Shown in pieces: positions 1 through 5,591 of a stretch of DNA of 5,591 nucleotides. A program made the translations under genes and the position numbers. The notes under the pieces were generated by a model. That model searched no databases. It worked only from the letters and a program-made list of their open reading frames with translations, and was not told the origin of the DNA. Every line of letters begins with the position of its first letter. The stretch's first letter is position 1. The DNA lies in contig JAUVPN010000192.1 in the NCBI GenBank assembly GCA_030598645.1, forward strand, positions 1-5,591, read 5' to 3'. Source of the stretch: Hyphomicrobium sp. Its GTDB lineage: Bacteria; Pseudomonadota; Alphaproteobacteria; Rhizobiales; Hyphomicrobiaceae.

Positions 1-1
1 A

Positions 2-250
2 ACTATCGTCAATCCACATTCGCTGCTCAATGAAATCCATGTCGGGCCCGACGGCAGCCACGCTTACTTCGTACATTCCTACCACTTGGTAACAGACGAT
101 GCCGCGTCCGTTGTTGCAGTGACGGACTATGGCGGGAACGTTACAGCGATGGTTGCCAAGGATAACGTCGCCGGCACTCAATTCCACCCAGAGAAAAGCC
201 AGACTTTGGGCCTCAAGCTAATTGCAAATTTTCTAGCGTGGAACCCCTAG
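2..250 (+). CDS. hisH: Imidazole glycerol phosphate synthase, glutamine amidotransferase subunit HisH (C-terminal part, 5' end outside window)
   Basis: The open frame from base 2 ends at a TAG at 248-250 and gives the last 82 residues of a protein whose family is usually about 200-215 residues long. HisH hydrolyses glutamine and passes ammonia to HisF for histidine synthesis in the cytoplasm. The visible part contains the family's YFVHSYH segment and the TQFHPEKSQ segment, whose His and Glu complete the Cys-His-Glu triad of class I glutamine amidotransferases. The nucleophilic Cys would lie upstream of the window. The frame finishes with the usual helix ([13 protein letters not shown]). Its partner hisF is on the same strand but about 1.8 kb away, separated by an antisense block and hisA. 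No T-rich terminator for the + strand is seen just after the stop. Family assignment is firm; completeness of the gene cannot be judged. Confidence 0.95.
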
Positions 251-272
251 TAGGGCCGAAGACAATCTTCAG

Positions 273-307
273 GCACAAACGAAATGGCCGCCCGTTAGGG
301 CGGCCAT
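273..307 (-). terminator. Rho-independent terminator of the Cas2-like gene
   Basis: Bases 284-293 and 298-307 form a perfect 10-bp stem (ATGGCCGCCC with GGGCGGCCAT) around a 4-base loop. Read on the minus strand, the stem is followed by TTCGTTTGT, a T-rich tail. On the plus strand it is followed by CGCGCAGC, with no T run. It lies 31 bases past the stop of the minus-strand gene at 339-698, so it most likely ends that transcript. The stem sits between two convergent genes and could also slow transcripts leaving hisH. Confidence 0.75.
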
Positions 308-338
308 CGCGCAGCTTCGAGAGAGAGAAGTTCCTGCA

Positions 339-698
339 TCAGCACGCGGTGGCCAGTGGCAGTTCGGGCTGTGTATTGGGTTCCGCGGGCGCCGGGAAGG
401 CAACGACATTGGAGTCGTCGGTTATTTCGAAGGCAGCTCGCCGCTGGCGAAACCAACGCAGCGCCGTATTAGTAAGCACCGCGTCGTCCTGAACTTCTTG
501 AATCAGCAGGCCGTCATCAGCCGTAAGCAGCGCTGAAAGCCGTGCCACAATCGCCTCTTCGCGGTCGCCTGTCTTCATGTACCAAGTCTGATCGAGCGGC
601 CGCGCCCAGGAATGGCCCGCCGCCATAATTTCTTGCGCCAGCGCGTGTTTGTTGCTGTGAGGATTTGCGAGGTCATAGGAGATGATGAGGGTGCGCAT
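339..698 (-). CDS. Stand-alone Cas2-like ('SinR-like') small protein, putative SOS-controlled
   Basis: 119 residues with an ATG start at 698 and an AAAGAG stretch about 7 bases upstream as a plausible ribosome site. The N-terminal 70 residues fit the Cas2-type ferredoxin fold: a first strand ending in ISYDL (Asp9, at the place of the conserved Asp in Cas2), a helix (NKHALAQEIMAAG), a strand pair around RPLDQTWYMKT, a second helix and a last strand (DGLLIQEV). A basic segment (TALRWFRQRR) and a Pro-rich tail follow. From memory, similar alphaproteobacterial proteins are labelled 'SinR family', which should not be read as Bacillus SinR. No cas1, other cas gene or CRISPR repeats are present, so a role in spacer acquisition is unlikely. 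Related Cas2-fold proteins include VapD-type RNases, but nuclease activity here is unproven. Two LexA-like boxes upstream suggest DNA-damage induction. The gene is real with good confidence; its function is unknown. Confidence 0.8.
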   Translation of the reverse strand: MRTLIISYDLANPHSNKHALAQEIMAAGHSWARPLDQTWYMKTGDREEAIVARLSALLTADDGLLIQEVQDDAVLTNTALRWFRQRRAAFEITDDSNVVAFPAPAEPNTQPELPLATAC

Positions 699-775
699 AG
701 CGGTCTCTTTCTAGGTTTAGCCTTCACGGGAAAACGCTTTTACAAACACCCGATCATGTGACGTCTGCGGGATCA

Positions 776-790
776 GAACATAATAGGAAC
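776..790 (-). promoter_or_regulatory. Putative LexA (SOS) box 1, upstream of the Cas2-like gene
   Basis: The minus strand reads GTTCCTATTATGTTC, an exact GTTC-N7-GTTC, which is the known LexA site of many alphaproteobacteria. The spacer holds TATTAT (780-785), a -10-like hexamer, so a bound repressor would block a promoter firing toward the ATG at 698, about 78 bases away. No good -35 hexamer is seen at the right distance. Site match is direct; LexA binding is inferred. Confidence 0.65.
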
Positions 791-822
791 ATGGCACGAG
801 TCGTCGGTCCTGTCTAGCTTTT

Positions 823-837
823 GTTCTATAATTGTTC
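823..837 (+). promoter_or_regulatory. Putative LexA (SOS) box 2, opposite orientation
   Basis: The plus strand reads GTTCTATAATTGTTC, again an exact GTTC-N7-GTTC. Its spacer contains a perfect TATAAT (827-832). The site is 32 bases from box 1 and points the other way. On the plus strand no coding region follows it before the antisense gene that ends at 888, so its target in that direction is missing or not recognised. It could also act together with box 1 on the Cas2-like gene. Confidence 0.65.
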
Positions 838-887
838 TCTCCTAGGCCAGCTGGTGGAACAGGAAGGCCGCTTTGGCACCGGCAAAG

Positions 888-1196
888 TTACTTGAAGAGG
901 ACCAGCTGATCGGGATGCGACCCGCGTGAGAGGCGCCGGTGCGGACCATAGTCCACTCGCTCAATGAGCGAGGGGTATCGTTCTGCAAATATCTGCAACG
1001 CTATGTCGCGTGTGCCTGTAAAGCGCACTTCCTCCCATATCTCGTAGAGGCGGCGCGGGTCGCAACCATATCGGCGCACAAGGTCACTGCGGCGGATCCG
1101 TAGCCAGCGCGCAATCCAAATATCGATGGCATCCGCTTCGGTTAAAGCCCGGCGAGGCGGCAAGGGCAGAGATGATTCCAGAAATGCTAAAGCCAT
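888..1196 (-). CDS. Hypothetical protein with HTH-like segment and C-terminal QLVLF tail
   Basis: 102 residues from the ATG at 1196. An in-frame TTG at 1205 would add three residues. Neither start has a clear Shine-Dalgarno sequence. A Pro-rich leader of about 16 residues is followed by an acidic-to-basic helix (TEADAIDIWIARWLRIRR). Next comes a segment spaced like a helix-turn-helix (SDLVRRYGCDPRRLYEIW, about 37-54), then a helix ending in FAERYPSLIERVDYGPHRR. The last residues, DQLVLFK (QLVLF at 97-101), match the QL[S/D]LF pentapeptide by which polymerases and repair proteins bind the beta sliding clamp, except at the third residue. The DPRRLYEIW and YP-LI-R-GPHR segments feel like a conserved alphaproteobacterial hypothetical family, but I cannot name it. 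It lies 189 bp upstream of the Cas2-like gene on the same strand. Being real is likely but not certain; function is unknown. Confidence 0.65.
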   Translation of the reverse strand: MALAFLESSLPLPPRRALTEADAIDIWIARWLRIRRSDLVRRYGCDPRRLYEIWEEVRFTGTRDIALQIFAERYPSLIERVDYGPHRRLSRGSHPDQLVLFK

Positions 1197-1225
1197 GACA
1201 TACAATAACCGCGACCGATGCCGGC

Positions 1226-1256
1226 CTTGACTTCGCGAGCCGGGACCTCTCTATCG
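1226..1256 (+). promoter_or_regulatory. Weak candidate promoter for hisA-hisF
   Basis: CTTGACTT (1226-1233) resembles the rhizobial -35 CTTGAC, and CTATCG (1251-1256) resembles the -10 CTATAT. The spacing is two bases longer than the usual 17. hisA needs a promoter here because the block between it and hisH is transcribed the other way. The predicted leader before the TTG start would be about 65 bases. The match is modest and may be chance. Confidence 0.3.
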
Positions 1257-1329
1257 GTGTCAATGAAAGCAAACTGATGACTAAAGTTGCAGGCGCCACG
1301 CGAGCGCGCCGTTTACCTAAGAGAGCCCG

Positions 1330-2058
1330 TTGATCCTCTTTCCCGCTATAGACCTAAAAGACGGCCAATGCGTGCGGCTCAAGCTCGGCGAGTTGAGCGA
1401 GGCGACCGTCTTCAACGACGATCCGGCAGCGCAAGCACGTTTATTCGAGAGCCAGGGTTTTCAATATTTGCACATTGTCGACTTGAACGGCGCTTTCGAG
1501 GGCAAGCCGGTCAATGCTGACGCGATCGAAACAATACTGGCTACGATCGAAATTCCCGTGCAGCTCGGTGGTGGCATCCGCGAGCTAGAGACGATTGAGA
1601 TGTGGCTCTCTAAGGGTGTTTCCCGAGTAATTCTTGGCACTGCAGCCGTACGCAACCCCGACGTAGTGGTACGGGCCTGCAAGGCCTACCCTGGACGCAT
1701 CGCTGTTGGCATCGACGCGAAGGACGGCAAGGTAGCGGTTGAAGGGTGGGCGCAGACAAGCGCGCTCACTGCTGGAGAGCTTGCGAACCGTTTCGAAGAT
1801 GTAGGGGTTGCCGCCATCATCTATACCGACATCGAACGCGACGGCGTTATGAAGGGACTTAACCTTGAGGCAACAGCGGCACTGGCTGGCGCGACCAAGA
1901 TCCCGATTATTGCGTCAGGCGGGCTCGCATCGATCGACGACGTCAGAGCCTTGACGCGGCCGGAATACGCTATGCTGGAAGGCGCGATTATGGGCCGCGC
2001 GCTTTATGATGGCCGCATCGATCCGCGTGAGGCACTAGCAGTCACGAATGCAGCCTAA
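1330..2058 (+). CDS. hisA: ProFAR isomerase HisA
   Basis: 242 residues, the usual length for the (beta/alpha)8 isomerase that opens the ribose ring of ProFAR to give PRFAR, the substrate of HisF-HisH. The start is a TTG. It is forced, because an in-frame TAA lies at 1318-1320 and no ATG or GTG lies between. The TTG also gives the family N-terminus [23 protein letters not shown] stretch at 1321-1325 leaves only 4 bases before the start. Expected catalytic residues are present: Asp8 (PAID), Asp129 (VGIDAKDG) and the Thr of YTDIERDG (Thr166). The phosphate-binding loops GGGIR (about 80-84) and SGG (196-198) are intact. hisF follows after 17 bp, so the two are almost certainly cotranscribed. No damage is seen. 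Confidence 0.98.
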
Positions 2059-2075
2059 AAGGCAGTACAACTGGC

Positions 2076-2852
2076 GTGCTCAAGACCCGCATCATCCCTT
2101 GCCTTGACGTCGCAGACGGTCGTGTCGTCAAAGGCGTCAACTTTGTCGATCTTGTTGACGCAGGCGATCCCGTAGAGGCCGCTGCCGCCTATGATGCAGC
2201 CGGCGCCGACGAACTTTGCTTTCTCGATATTACGGCGAGCCACGAGGAGCGCGACACAATCTTTCACATTGTCGAGCAGACGGCAGAGCGCTGCTTCATG
2301 CCGCTTACCGTCGGCGGCGGCGTGCGCAGCATCGTCGATATTGGCCGACTGCTCAACGCCGGTGCGGACAAAGTATCGATCAACACTGCGGCGGTCAAAA
2401 ATCGCCAATTCGTGAAGGAAGCTTCCGAAAAATTTGGCAACCAGTGCATCGTGGTCGCCATTGATGCCAAGAAAGTGTCAAAACCGAACGAGCCTAATAA
2501 GTGGGACATCTTTACCCATGGCGGACGTACGCCGACCGGCATCAACGCTGTCGAATACGCGAAAGAAGTGGTTGCTTTGGGCGCCGGCGAGATTCTGCTC
2601 ACCTCGATGGATCGCGATGGAACCAAAGCTGGCTTCGATCTCGATCTGACGCGCGCTATCTCTCATGCCGTAAGTGTGCCGGTCATCGCTTCAGGCGGCG
2701 TCGGAACGCTTGATCATCTTGTCGAGGGGGTCACGAAGGGTGGCGCCAGTGCGGTGCTGGCCGCTTCGATATTTCACTTTGGTACGCATACGATCGCGCA
2801 GGCGAAGGAGCATATGGCATCCGCAGGCATTGCGGTCCGGCCACCCGGCTAG
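2076..2852 (+). CDS. hisF: Imidazole glycerol phosphate synthase, cyclase subunit HisF
   Basis: 258 residues, normal for HisF, which with HisH turns PRFAR plus ammonia into imidazole glycerol phosphate and AICAR. It is a (beta/alpha)8 barrel like HisA. The GTG start gives the family N-terminus [20 protein letters not shown]. An AAGG at 2059-2062 is a rather distant ribosome site, 13 bases before the start. Catalytic Asp11 (PCLD) and Asp130 (VVAID) are in the expected places. The GGGVRS loop (about 80-85), [10 protein letters not shown] and IASGGVG are intact. The TAG stop (2850-2852) overlaps the stop of the antisense EAL remnant by two bases. The gene often found next, hisE, is absent; the sequence after the stop belongs to the antisense c-di-GMP gene. 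Confidence 0.98.
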
Positions 2853-3170
2853 GAAACAACCCGAAGTCTGTGTTCGCACACCGCAAGCGTTGCCTTGAGT
2901 TCGCTGTTCGGAATAGCGCTGCTGAAGTGATAGCCCTGCACCTCGTCGCAACCTGTATTTGTCACGCAATTGAGCTCGGCCAGCGCGCCGACAAGCTTGG
3001 TTCAAGACCCAGCGGCCGATTTGAAGCATTTGGTCATTTTGCTCGGCAAGCGGCAGAAACTCATTGGGTATGATCAGGCCACGCTGAGGATGCCGCCAGC
3101 GTAGAAGCGCTTCGCAGCTCGTCACATGTCGCGATTTGAGTTTGATGATCGATTGATAGTACAGCTTAAG
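2849..3170 (-). pseudogene. EAL-domain (c-di-GMP phosphodiesterase) remnant, cut off by an amber codon and internally deleted
   Basis: Immediately after the TAG at 3171-3173, the same frame continues with LKLYYQSIIKLKS and then CEALLRWRHPQRGL. This is the start of an EAL domain with its EAL signature at 3105-3113. Homology runs on through FLPLAEQND and GRWVLNQAC to about 2991. About 40 bases later, in a different frame, the end of an EAL domain appears: GCDEVQGYHFS then PNSELKATLAVCEHR, ending at a TAG at 2849-2851. About 130-160 residues between these points are gone. They include the metal- and substrate-binding motifs of the family (the Asn and Glu strands, DDFGTG, the catalytic Lys and EGVE). 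Phosphodiesterase activity is therefore not expected. An ORF can be read through the first part into frame-shifted sequence (2691-3125), but it has no start of its own and overlaps hisF, so it is not a gene. Confidence 0.88.
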
Positions 3171-4241
3171 CTACCTGCGGTGAGCTGCTGAGAGCAGATC
3201 TCTCTCAAGTTGACGCTTTTTCTCGGGTTTGTGCAGCGTCCCCGATTGAAAAAGTTTGAAGTTATTCCGCCCTGAAGATTTCACCTCATAAAGCGCGACA
3301 TCGGCACTCTTCATCAGTTCATCCGCGGTGGCGCCGTGCTCTGGCGCTTGAACAATCCCAATGCTCGCGCTGAGAGTGACCGAATGGCCAAGAATGAGAA
3401 ACGGTTTATTGACTGCATCCATAACACGTTGCGCCAAGCGCTCGCATTGCTCACGCCGCACCGCACCCATCTGGATTATGGCGAATTCGTCTCCGCCAAG
3501 TCGCGCTATGAAATCTGTTTTGCGAACGCTGGAACGCAGTCGCTCTGCAACTGCTTTTAATAGTGCGTCACCGACCGGGTGCCCCAACGTGTCGTTGACC
3601 TCTTTGAACTTGTCGAGATCAATCCAGTGCAAGGTAACGGCGGGGCCCCGATCGACCACTTCTAGGGCTTTTTCAAATGACTCTCGGAAGTAGAAGCGAT
3701 TGGGAATGCCGGTTAGCGGATCGTGACGCGCGAGCCATTCTATCTTCTCATCCGCCCTACGCTTTTCGGTGATGTCTTCCTGAACGTCCACCCAACCTCC
3801 GTCAGAAAGCGGCTGATATGTGACGAGCAACGTACGGCCGCCACTCAAGTTCTGGGTGCGTGTGAAAGATTTTCCGGTGGCAAGTTGCTCCTCATGCAGC
3901 TTGAGCCATTGGGCCTGCCTTTCTCGTTCCTCCTCGCCATCACGGCCAGACTCGCTCTTGACGTGGTAGCGAAGAATTTCGGCTAACGGCGTACCAGGTC
4001 GCGTTAGCTTTTTCGGCAGTGAGTACATCTCCCGATAGCTCTCGTTGCAAACGATCAGACGCTGATCGGCATCGAACATAGACAAGCCGCGAACCATATT
4101 GTTGAGGGCGATCTCGAACCACGCGTTCAGGCGCTCGAGCTTCTTTTTCTGCTTAAGCAAAACGTCAATCGGACCACCTTGAGCGTCTTGGCTCACAAGC
4201 GGAGATCGCGTTTCTTTTCCGCGGTTCAATTCATTTGACAC
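3171..4241 (-). CDS. PAS-GGDEF protein, probable diguanylate cyclase, 3'-truncated former PAS-GGDEF-EAL protein
   Basis: 356 residues from a GTG start at 4241. No transmembrane segment is seen, so it is likely cytosolic. A short coiled region (KQKKKLERLNAW, about 30-41) leads into a PAS fold (about 42-160) that contains GLSMFDADQRLIVCN and WVDVQEDITEKRRA. A GGDEF domain (about 168-332) begins HDPLTGIPNR. It has IDLDKFK (metal Asp208), NDTLGH, and RLGGDEF with an intact GGDEF at 249-253. An inhibitory RxxD site (RKTD, 240-243) sits five residues before it. The protein ends at RQLERDLLSAAHRR, the linker that normally enters an EAL domain. An in-frame TAG then stops translation, at a place where the family often has Glu, so a single GAG-to-TAG change would explain it. 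Cyclase activity from GTP is plausible; the PAS ligand is unknown. Could be listed as one pseudogene with the EAL remnant. Confidence 0.85.
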   Translation of the reverse strand: MSNELNRGKETRSPLVSQDAQGGPIDVLLKQKKKLERLNAWFEIALNNMVRGLSMFDADQRLIVCNESYREMYSLPKKLTRPGTPLAEILRYHVKSESGRDGEEERERQAQWLKLHEEQLATGKSFTRTQNLSGGRTLLVTYQPLSDGGWVDVQEDITEKRRADEKIEWLARHDPLTGIPNRFYFRESFEKALEVVDRGPAVTLHWIDLDKFKEVNDTLGHPVGDALLKAVAERLRSSVRKTDFIARLGGDEFAIIQMGAVRREQCERLAQRVMDAVNKPFLILGHSVTLSASIGIVQAPEHGATADELMKSADVALYEVKSSGRNNFKLFQSGTLHKPEKKRQLERDLLSAAHRR

Positions 4242-4248
4242 AGTGCAG

Positions 4249-4252
4249 CTCC
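4249..4252 (-). promoter_or_regulatory. Ribosome binding site that decides the GTG start of the PAS-GGDEF gene
   Basis: On the minus strand GGAG lies 7 bases before the GTG at 4241. The nearby ATG at 4234 is in another frame, so the GTG is the best start. Confidence 0.6.
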
Positions 4253-4304
4253 ACGCACGACATAGGCCGGCAAGTTGCCTATCTCCTCGAGCGTAGAAGG
4301 ATAC

Positions 4305-4357
4305 GCTTTTGCAGTATTCCTCGACTTAAGCTGTTCATCGACGTTTCATGCAAAAGC
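4305..4357. repeat. Inverted repeat in the non-coding region upstream of the PAS-GGDEF gene
   Basis: GCTTTTGCA at 4305-4313 is matched exactly in inverse by TGCAAAAGC at 4349-4357, with 35 bases between. The repeat lies 64-116 bases upstream of the PAS-GGDEF start. It could be a paired operator (centres 44 bases apart, about four helical turns), a weak RNA stem, or chance. The rest of 4242-4516 shows no open frame with a convincing start, no tRNA-like fold, and no clear promoter. It also holds a perfect palindrome CGATTAATCG at 4501-4510 just past the nth stop. Confidence 0.4.
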
Positions 4358-4516
4358 AACCTGCGAATGTAATAAATGGGGCGTCTGCATGGCTCGAGAC
4401 GTCAGGAGAATTGGGGCCTAACGATAAGCCTCGCCCTCCTCAAGGTTAACGACGACCCTCTCAGCCGAGCCGGCCCCCCGAATTTTTTTGTGATGAGGGC
4501 CGATTAATCGCGCCGC

Positions 4517-5245
4517 TCACACGGTCTTTCCCTTGAATAGGCAGAGATCGTTGATGATGCATCGCTCGCATTCCGGACGCCTCGCCTTACACACGTAGCG
4601 CCCATGCAAGATGAGCCAGTGATGGGCATGGACCCCCATCTCAGGTGGAACGATCCGAAGCAGATCTTCTTCAACAGCAAGCGGCGTCTTACCGTTGGAA
4701 AGCCCAATACGATTGGCAACGCGGAACACGTGCGTGTCGACCGCCATAGTCGGTTCGCCGAAGGCTACGTTAAGTACGACGTTCGCGGTTTTGCGACCAA
4801 CGCCCGGAAGGGCTTCGAGTGCTTCACGGTCGCGCGGAACTTTCCCACCGTGCTCTTCGATGAGTTTGTGAGAAAGCAGGATCACGTTGCGCGCTTTATT
4901 CCGATAAAGGCCAATTGTTTTGATCATTTCGCGCAACTTCTCCTCGCCCAGAGTGATCATTTTCTCCGGCGCATCCGCCTTCTGAAATAGTAAGCGCGTT
5001 GCCTTGTTGACGCCTGCGTCAGTGGCCTGTGCAGAAAGAACTACGGCCACGAGCAGCGTGAAGGGATTGACCGACTCGAGCTCGCCTTTGGGCTCGGGAT
5101 TCTCAGCAGCAAAGCGGTGGAAAATATCGGCTATGGCATCCGACTTCAGCTTCGGAGGGCGCCCGCCGCCGCCCGTCGGCGCGCTAGCCCGCGGTTTCTT
5201 CGCGACACTACGGGGTCGTACACTGGATCGATTTGGGCTCTTCAT
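4517..5245 (-). CDS. nth: Endonuclease III (DNA glycosylase/AP lyase)
   Basis: 242 residues from the ATG at 5245, with AGGG a few bases upstream. A longer reading from 5302 would overlap the divergent DUF2244 gene and adds no family sequence. Nth removes oxidised pyrimidines from DNA and nicks the abasic site in base excision repair. The first 33 residues are a basic, Gly/Pro-rich extension, followed by the core from about 37. LLVAVVLSAQATD (64-76) is conserved. The helix-hairpin-helix is LPGVGRKTANVV with catalytic Lys152, and the catalytic Asp170 sits in AVDTHVFRVANR. The four cluster cysteines C219-x6-C226-x2-C229-x5-C235 give the exact [4Fe-4S] spacing. The gene is intact. It is divergent from DUF2244, with 30 bp between starts, so its promoter probably lies in or beside that gene. 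No clear LexA site or intrinsic terminator is seen for it. Confidence 0.97.
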   Translation of the reverse strand: MKSPNRSSVRPRSVAKKPRASAPTGGGGRPPKLKSDAIADIFHRFAAENPEPKGELESVNPFTLLVAVVLSAQATDAGVNKATRLLFQKADAPEKMITLGEEKLREMIKTIGLYRNKARNVILLSHKLIEEHGGKVPRDREALEALPGVGRKTANVVLNVAFGEPTMAVDTHVFRVANRIGLSNGKTPLAVEEDLLRIVPPEMGVHAHHWLILHGRYVCKARRPECERCIINDLCLFKGKTV

Positions 5246-5275
5246 ATTCCCTACGTCAGCGGATAAGCTTGGCAC

Positions 5276-5591
5276 ATGAACAAAAACAATAGAGTGAAGC
5301 AAGAGGACGGCGCCTTCAGCGCAGTCTTACACCAGCACCGGTCGCTGAGCCCCACAGGCTTCCTAATCTTGATGACGGCAATCGGCGGCGTAAGCTTCGT
5401 GGCGGGGGTAATCTTTCTCATTATGGGTGCTTGGCCAGTTTTTGGCTTTTTCGGACTCGACGTGGCGCTCATTTATCTCGCCTTCAAACTCAATTACCGA
5501 TCCGGGCGCCTGTACGAAACTGTGGAGCTAACCCCAGAGATGCTGACGGTCACGCGCGTCCAGCCGTCTGGCAAGCGAGAAAGTTTCGACT
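5276..5591 (+). CDS. DUF2244 integral membrane protein (N-terminal part, 3' end outside window)
   Basis: The open frame starts at ATG 5276 and runs off the window after 105 codons. A charged N-terminal stretch leads into HRSLSPTGFLIL, typical of DUF2244. Two hydrophobic segments follow, roughly residues 29-52 (FLILMTAIGGVSFVAGVIFL) and 54-72 (AWPVFGFFGLDVALIYLAF). Next comes a basic NYRSGRLYE turn and the start of a beta-rich soluble part (VELTPEMLTVTRV). DUF2244 proteins are inner-membrane proteins of unknown function in alphaproteobacteria. The ribosome site before the ATG is weak. It is divergent from nth, and from memory this pairing is common in related genomes, though no functional link is established. 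Family assignment is firm on the GFFGLDV and LSP motifs. Confidence 0.9.
   Translation, partial: MNKNNRVKQEDGAFSAVLHQHRSLSPTGFLILMTAIGGVSFVAGVIFLIMGAWPVFGFFGLDVALIYLAFKLNYRSGRLYETVELTPEMLTVTRVQPSGKRESFD

Follow-up and report, generated by a model that had tools for sequence, protein, structure and literature searches.

The window analysed here is a 5,591-bp stretch of a Hyphomicrobium sp. genome (assembly GCA_030598645.1, contig JAUVPN010000192.1, positions 1 to 5,591), and the gene in question is a 119-aa open reading frame (ORF) on its minus strand, starting with ATG, whose product is predicted to adopt a Cas2-type fold. In the ORF listing of the window, the gene lies between the end of hisH and a gap at 699-887, and the gap is followed by a 105-aa ORF (orf105), hisA, hisF, a gene for a GGDEF protein, nth and a gene for a DUF2244 protein; the his gene names are those we presume from the sequences. 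The gap contains two exact copies of GTTC-N7-GTTC, GTTCCTATTATGTTC at 776-790 (minus strand) and GTTCTATAATTGTTC at 823-837 (plus strand), which span 62 bases end to end, as the original prediction made from the letters of this DNA had noted. The two boxes face each other: the gene strand reads GAAC-N7-GAAC and then GTTC-N7-GTTC.

339-698, minus strand: gene of the Cas2-fold protein, 119 aa (ORF; βαβ-βαβ fold in the model; 742 homologues; phrog_1090)
776-790, minus strand: LexA-type box 2, GTTC-N7-GTTC (GTTC-oriented box in 89/90 upstream regions)
823-837, plus strand: LexA-type box 1, GAAC-N7-GAAC on the gene strand (both orientations in 77/90 upstream regions)

LexA-type boxes upstream of the Cas2-fold gene

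A sequence search returned 742 homologues of the 119-aa protein at E ≤ 0.001; the close relatives L001 and L002 are Hyphomicrobium metagenome-assembled genomes with 91-92% protein identity to the window protein. Genome searches used an alignment of 27 relatives as the query and detected the gene in 89 of the 103 genomes of the family to which L001 belongs. The gene has been retained across most of this one Hyphomicrobiales family, which comprises Hyphomicrobium and its relatives. The upstream regions of these 89 loci and of the window, with gene starts aligned by tblastn, form the set of 90 regions used below.

At least one exact box was present within 300 bp upstream of the gene in all 90 regions. 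The spacer of 7 gave 178 boxes in these regions, against 0-9 for any other length up to 15, and when the loci were divided into 300-bp bins, 178 of 189 boxes fell in the bin directly upstream of the gene. The start-to-start distance of the box pair was 47 bp in 59 pairings, as in the window, with minor classes at 35, 46, 48 and 58-59 bp, and the spacer of box 1 tended to AAAATTG in the aligned promoters. At less than 60% protein identity, 19 representatives remained, all 19 with a box; their mean pairwise identity was 0.83 for box 2, 0.60 for box 1, 0.28 for the upstream sequence and 0.30 for the leader. Within the window no other exact box was found (0.17 expected over both strands), and two boxes were reached in 3 of 200 dinucleotide shuffles of the window. 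A chance origin, already judged unlikely in the original prediction, is rejected: the boxes are conserved in 90/90 upstream regions, almost exclusively at a spacer of 7, and the flanking DNA is near random. The observation of two real boxes is confirmed, on stronger evidence than the original prediction had offered. An association of the boxes with orf105 or the his genes was rejected as well, and the boxes are assigned to the Cas2-fold gene because they persist at loci whose fetched flank yielded no orf105 or no hisA. Nine promoters (L008, L009, L038, L039, L055, L063, L065, L066 and L074) carry three GAAC half-sites at 11-bp steps, that is, two overlapping boxes, before box 2, which suggests more than two LexA dimers at these sites.

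GTTC-N7-GTTC is the exact LexA consensus reported for C. crescentus (PMC12907096). LexA_DNA_bind was found in all 20 carriers sampled from the 89, and the same exact box lies upstream of lexA in 19 of the 20, the remaining locus having just 19 bases upstream. Because the box footprint covers every upstream region, the 19 diverse representatives included, and the same box stands at lexA, the proposed LexA-type control is supported, and we strongly infer that LexA represses the Cas2-fold gene and that damage releases it. At recA (L126-L143), a one-mismatch GAAC-N7-GTAC was seen in 18 of 19 promoters, some 110-145 bp ahead of the RecA match; the last locus is truncated.

Two results speak against this reading. 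The exact box was present at only 4 of the 19 recA loci, and distant members of the fold family mostly lack it. In an order-level sample, 13 of 199 genomes from the order of L001 had the gene (7 close and 6 distant relatives), and 5 of the 6 distant relatives were boxless, as were 20 of 21 distant alphaproteobacterial matches within 400 bp upstream. The original prediction had expected conserved boxes upstream of homologues; this holds within the family, where none of the 89 loci is boxless, and mostly fails among the distant relatives. LexA-type control is therefore specific to this subfamily and is silent on the wider fold family.

Promoter architecture and the conserved GANTC site

The promoters were aligned on box 2 (n = 89; G235, which has no GTTC-oriented box, was left out of the 90). 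GANTC, which has been described as the CcrM site read by GcrA in Alphaproteobacteria (PMC3667746, PMC7987155), lies 12 bp before box 2 in 73/89 promoters, the background in these loci being 0.00157 per base, and in 13 of the 19 diverse representatives. Its middle base is free (T31 C21 G19 A18), and the extended GcrA-preferred form YGAKTCK occurs in 27/89 promoters. Other positions are also fixed to box 2, namely T.GAC at -26 (73/89), CAT at -3 (70/89), A at -2 (89/89) and T-A at box-2 positions 8-9 (87/89). The -10-like hexamers that the original prediction had placed in the box spacers (TATTAT and TATAAT) were not conserved across the 89 aligned promoters.

798-802, between the boxes: GANTC (GAGTC on the plus strand), CcrM-type methylation site (at -12 from box 2)
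811-816, minus strand: putative -35 element TAGACA (TNGAC at -26)
788-793, minus strand: putative -10 element CATGTT, overlapping box 2
781, minus strand: putative transcription start, the A of the conserved TA (+8/+9 of box 2)

The natural reading of these positions is a promoter with TAGACA as its -35 element, 17 bp holding GANTC, CATGTT as its -10 element and a start at the conserved A. Box 2 would then cover the -10/start region, and box 1 would lie upstream of the -35 element. Evidence unfavourable to this arrangement comes from the standard promoter scan (9-of-12 consensus), in which no -35/-10 pair passed, and from the 16/89 promoters in which GANTC is not at -12, 7 of them with the site shifted by 1-2 bp.

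The pattern GANTC-N7-GTTC-N4-TAN-GTTC was then scanned in the 103 whole family genomes and gave 75 matches in 71 genomes, 70 of them at the Cas2-fold gene, 2 at the same hisA-orf105 locus where the contig stops short of the gene, and 3 at other places. With the pattern reversed as a control, 2 matches were obtained in the same genomes; a longer pattern including TNGAC gave 51 matches in 50 of the 103, and a slightly stricter pattern matched once in 385 genomes of the class. The 199 order genomes yielded 13 pattern matches, 5 at the Cas2-fold gene, 4 before one gene of ~150 aa and 4 scattered. L221 and L222 hold promoter copies beside hisA and orf105 at contig ends, with the gene past the end; G270 also has a Cas2-fold gene elsewhere, so this assembly holds two such loci.

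The ~150-aa gene was seen in four Hyphomicrobiales genomes outside the family (L209, L210, L211 and L212), where two GTTC-N7-GTTC boxes in the same direction, 36 bp start to start, flank GAATC. Its product is unrelated to the Cas2-fold protein and ends in Ala-Ser in 4/4 cases (KLAS/KMAS). One of the four products was run against Pfam and generated no match; we presume a resemblance to VOC/glyoxalase-type proteins.

The conserved GANTC probably adds a methylation input through CcrM and GcrA, a prediction in line with the free middle base, which fits a GANTC reader and not a fixed contact. GcrA was detected in 19 of the 20 carriers sampled, one of the matches being partial. An alternative that we hold to be a serious, though less than even, possibility is that GANTC is a contact of LexA or RNA polymerase with no methylation input, the promoter being a plain SOS promoter. 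Degenerate half-site-like bases recur in this stretch of the sequence logo, as such a contact would have it, but GANTC overlaps neither exact box in the window, and the lexA promoters have no fixed GANTC: in 7 of 19 the site lies between -45 and +60 relative to the box, and its position varies among them.

Fold, predicted active site and C-terminal tail of the protein

The structure model is a βαβ-βαβ ferredoxin fold with a block pLDDT (predicted local distance difference test) of 88-94 over residues 1-70, and Cas2 was the closest fold among the matches listed in a fold search with the model. The Cas2-type ferredoxin fold named in the original prediction is thus borne out by the predicted structure, with support from the fold search. 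The phrog_1090 profile matched residues 1-76 (E 3.1e-9). A search of the viral fold library yielded no match at E ≤ 0.001, and PDB sequence searches with the protein gave nothing significant. No VapD chain stood among the matches listed in the fold search, an absence that does not count against VapD kinship. Weak matches to MMtag (Pfam) and to a type III secretion model (NCBIfam) were far below cut-off and were disregarded.

672-674, minus strand: codon of D9, end of strand 1 (D in 89/90, E in 1/90)
585-587, minus strand: codon of T38, start of strand 3 (residues 38-43 in the model; T in 77/90)
342-347, minus strand: codons of the last two residues, Ala-Cys, a degron-like C-terminus

D9 presumably occupies the position of the catalytic Asp of Cas2, and its retention in 89/90 proteins suggests a need for an acidic residue. 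From the fold and its conserved residues, we infer with moderate confidence that the protein binds nucleic acid as a dimer, and nuclease activity through D9 is predicted. Several results weigh against this view of fold and function. Residues 71-119 of the model are of low confidence, with a pTM (predicted template modelling score) of 0.59 for the model; Foldseek against PDB gave no match at E ≤ 0.001, the best being 1.1e-3; and other ferredoxin folds ranked close behind Cas2 among the matches listed. T38 is the closest candidate counterpart of the Ser/Thr in related nucleases; 13/90 proteins lack it, so catalysis may not be universal.

Past residue 86, length and letters vary except for an N-V-I-A-F-P-type stretch (N97 in 83/90, F101 in 85/90, P102 in 82/90), and the conservation returns at the very end of the protein. 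The penultimate residue is Ala in 90/90 proteins, and the last is always Cys, Ala, Ser, Gly or Val (C30 A22 S18 G16 V4); the 90 C-termini come from related sequences and their counts are not independent, and the feature is present in 19/19 diverse representatives. Among 257 other ORFs of the same loci, taken as a control, 56 had a penultimate Ala, and 28 had Ala followed by one of C/A/S/G/V. A clamp-like [QE]xEL[PA][LF] occurs in the tail of 55/90 proteins, and we assume its resemblance to a clamp motif. In Caulobacter, two alanines at the C-terminus are reported to be a common signal for ClpXP (PMC11034885). Because the conservation is tied to the carboxyl end itself, the terminus is read as a ClpXP degron, and removal of the Cas2-fold protein by ClpXP through it is predicted with moderate confidence. 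The GANTC site and this conserved C-terminus are additions beyond the original prediction.

The protein shares the Cas2-type ferredoxin fold with Cas2 (e.g. B. halodurans Cas2, 4es2), and unlike Cas2 it has a LexA-type promoter and a conserved C-terminal extension. Assignment to Cas2 proper was rejected: the fold fits, but the protein generated no Cas2 match in Pfam, NCBIfam or PADLOC, none of the window's genes was recognised as a cas gene (ORFs, Pfam, NCBIfam), as the original prediction had said, and no CRISPR-like repeats were found there. Cas1 was detected in 22/103 family genomes, 18 of them carriers, which leaves 71 of 89 carriers with Cas1 undetected, many of the assemblies being drafts. 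As Cas1 is undetected in most carriers, the gene seems independent of CRISPR adaptation.

The window protein belongs to the same core sequence family as phrog_1090 and the small proteins of phages, plasmids and bacteria named 'SinR'; a distant alphaproteobacterial member, L013, matches phage proteins annotated as SinR or CRISPR-associated endoribonuclease. Unlike the window protein, phrog_1090/'SinR' proteins are ~90 aa long without such a tail, and the distant alphaproteobacterial matches are mostly boxless, as given above. LexA-regulated nucleases and toxins, such as BapE in Caulobacter and SymE in E. coli, are likewise nucleic-acid-acting proteins under LexA; the folds of BapE and SymE are not known to be related to that of the Cas2-fold protein. 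The bapE gene has been named as a damage-induced endonuclease gene (PMC12907096). The Cas2/VapD-like nuclease sub-family of BPSL1038 (7vxr), which is also stand-alone and Cas2-fold, was among the fold matches listed, and DNase activity has been reported for BPSL1038 (PMC10491678). Membership in this sub-family was rejected, as its D(X20)SST signature is not in the window protein, where D9-X20 is followed by S30-W31-A32. VapD toxins have a Cas2-related fold in common with the window protein, and both are linked to SOS: newly described VapD toxins are reported to induce SOS when overproduced (PMC11980593), whereas the window gene is apparently controlled by SOS.

Genomic context, proposed role and alternatives

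The fetched loci have flanks of 1.5-3 kb, and some contigs end early. With the window included, orf105 was found in 77/90 flanks, hisA in 76/90 and hisH in 55/90. Because the hisA-orf105-gene context is common to most loci, the Cas2-fold gene looks vertically kept and chromosomal, and not like a cassette. A horizontal or mobile origin is not favoured, given this context and the lack of a match between the window protein and phage records; plasmids were searched with a distant relative of the protein only. The product of orf105 generated no match in Pfam or NCBIfam. On the 3' side, the hairpin between the Cas2-fold gene and the convergent hisH is probably a shared terminator, and L001 and L002 show a comparable repeat; the window gave no RNA element match in Rfam. 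The relative L069 is not judged to be broken, as the stop counted in its match falls where a 113-aa ORF ends.

888-1205, minus strand: orf105, 105-aa ORF upstream of the Cas2-fold gene (ORF listing)
283-308, minus strand: terminator-like hairpin 3' of the gene, before convergent hisH (-26.5 kcal/mol, z -4.91)

We consider it reasonably probable that the gene encodes a LexA-repressed, possibly methylation-gated, short-lived Cas2-fold SOS effector acting on nucleic acid. In undamaged cells, LexA would sit on the two face-to-face boxes bracketing the promoter, and DNA damage would remove it and switch the gene on, to judge from the boxes. The GANTC between them would admit CcrM/GcrA input, so that output may follow the replication state of the locus. 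From its fold and conservation, the protein would pair into a Cas2-like dimer, bind nucleic acid and probably cleave it through D9, and would briefly alter growth or nucleic-acid metabolism, before ClpXP clears it through the invariant Ala and small-residue C-terminus. The most likely outcome, by analogy, would be a transient SOS effector on nucleic acid, similar to RNases of the VapD or SymE type or to DNases such as BapE.

The main alternative, which we regard as unlikely, keeps LexA control and makes the protein a non-catalytic scaffold or replisome-binding factor, whose Cas2 core would bind nucleic acid while its tail attaches to a partner, for example the sliding clamp. Cas2 itself is described as a scaffold in CRISPR adaptation (PMC10491678), and both the clamp-like tail motif and the loss of T38 in 13/90 proteins are in keeping with such a role; the 35/90 proteins without the motif and the retention of D9 argue against it. 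A VapD-like toxin with a neighbour-encoded antitoxin, released by SOS induction, is improbable. The kinship of fold and the reported induction of SOS by overproduced VapD toxins (PMC11980593) would suit it, and orf105 flanks most loci, but orf105 was not found in the fetched flank of 13/90. In addition, orf105 is not under the same promoter, since in the window it is 189 bp from the gene and upstream of the boxes; there the gene is followed on its other side by the terminator-like hairpin and convergent hisH, and the NCBIfam matches of the window protein include no VapD model. No VapX/VapY/VapW-type neighbour was recognised, no profile search for these being made, and about half of VapD homologues are reported to be without a specific partner (PMC11980593). 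Binding of the boxes by a regulator other than LexA is very improbable, given the C. crescentus consensus (PMC12907096), the same box before lexA and the one-mismatch form, beside 4/19 exact boxes, at recA.

We put forward only tentatively the wider proposal of a composite promoter class, with two LexA boxes on either side of a GANTC at a set 12 bp before the downstream one, that would join the damage response to replication-state methylation by CcrM/GcrA and drive a short-lived, degron-tagged Cas2-fold nuclease, a core SOS effector of one family. The GANTC-box 2 arrangement is seen again at the unrelated ~150-aa gene of the four non-family genomes, whose product also ends in Ala-Ser, so a scheme that requires both damage and a methylation state and ends in quick proteolysis may have been used more than once. 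Literature searches, limited to the open literature, returned no publication on this gene. What is new is a gene regulated by LexA, as judged from conservation, whose Cas2-fold product is uncharacterised and whose promoter appears to be a composite of LexA and CcrM sites. Stand-alone relatives of Cas2 are plentiful, and few have been assigned a role; here a firm LexA context comes with an active site, a tail and a promoter that can each be tested, which opens a direct route to the function of a Cas2 fold outside CRISPR. If the GANTC site is functional, the gene would be a clear-cut example of an SOS promoter that is tied to methylation in the cell cycle as well.
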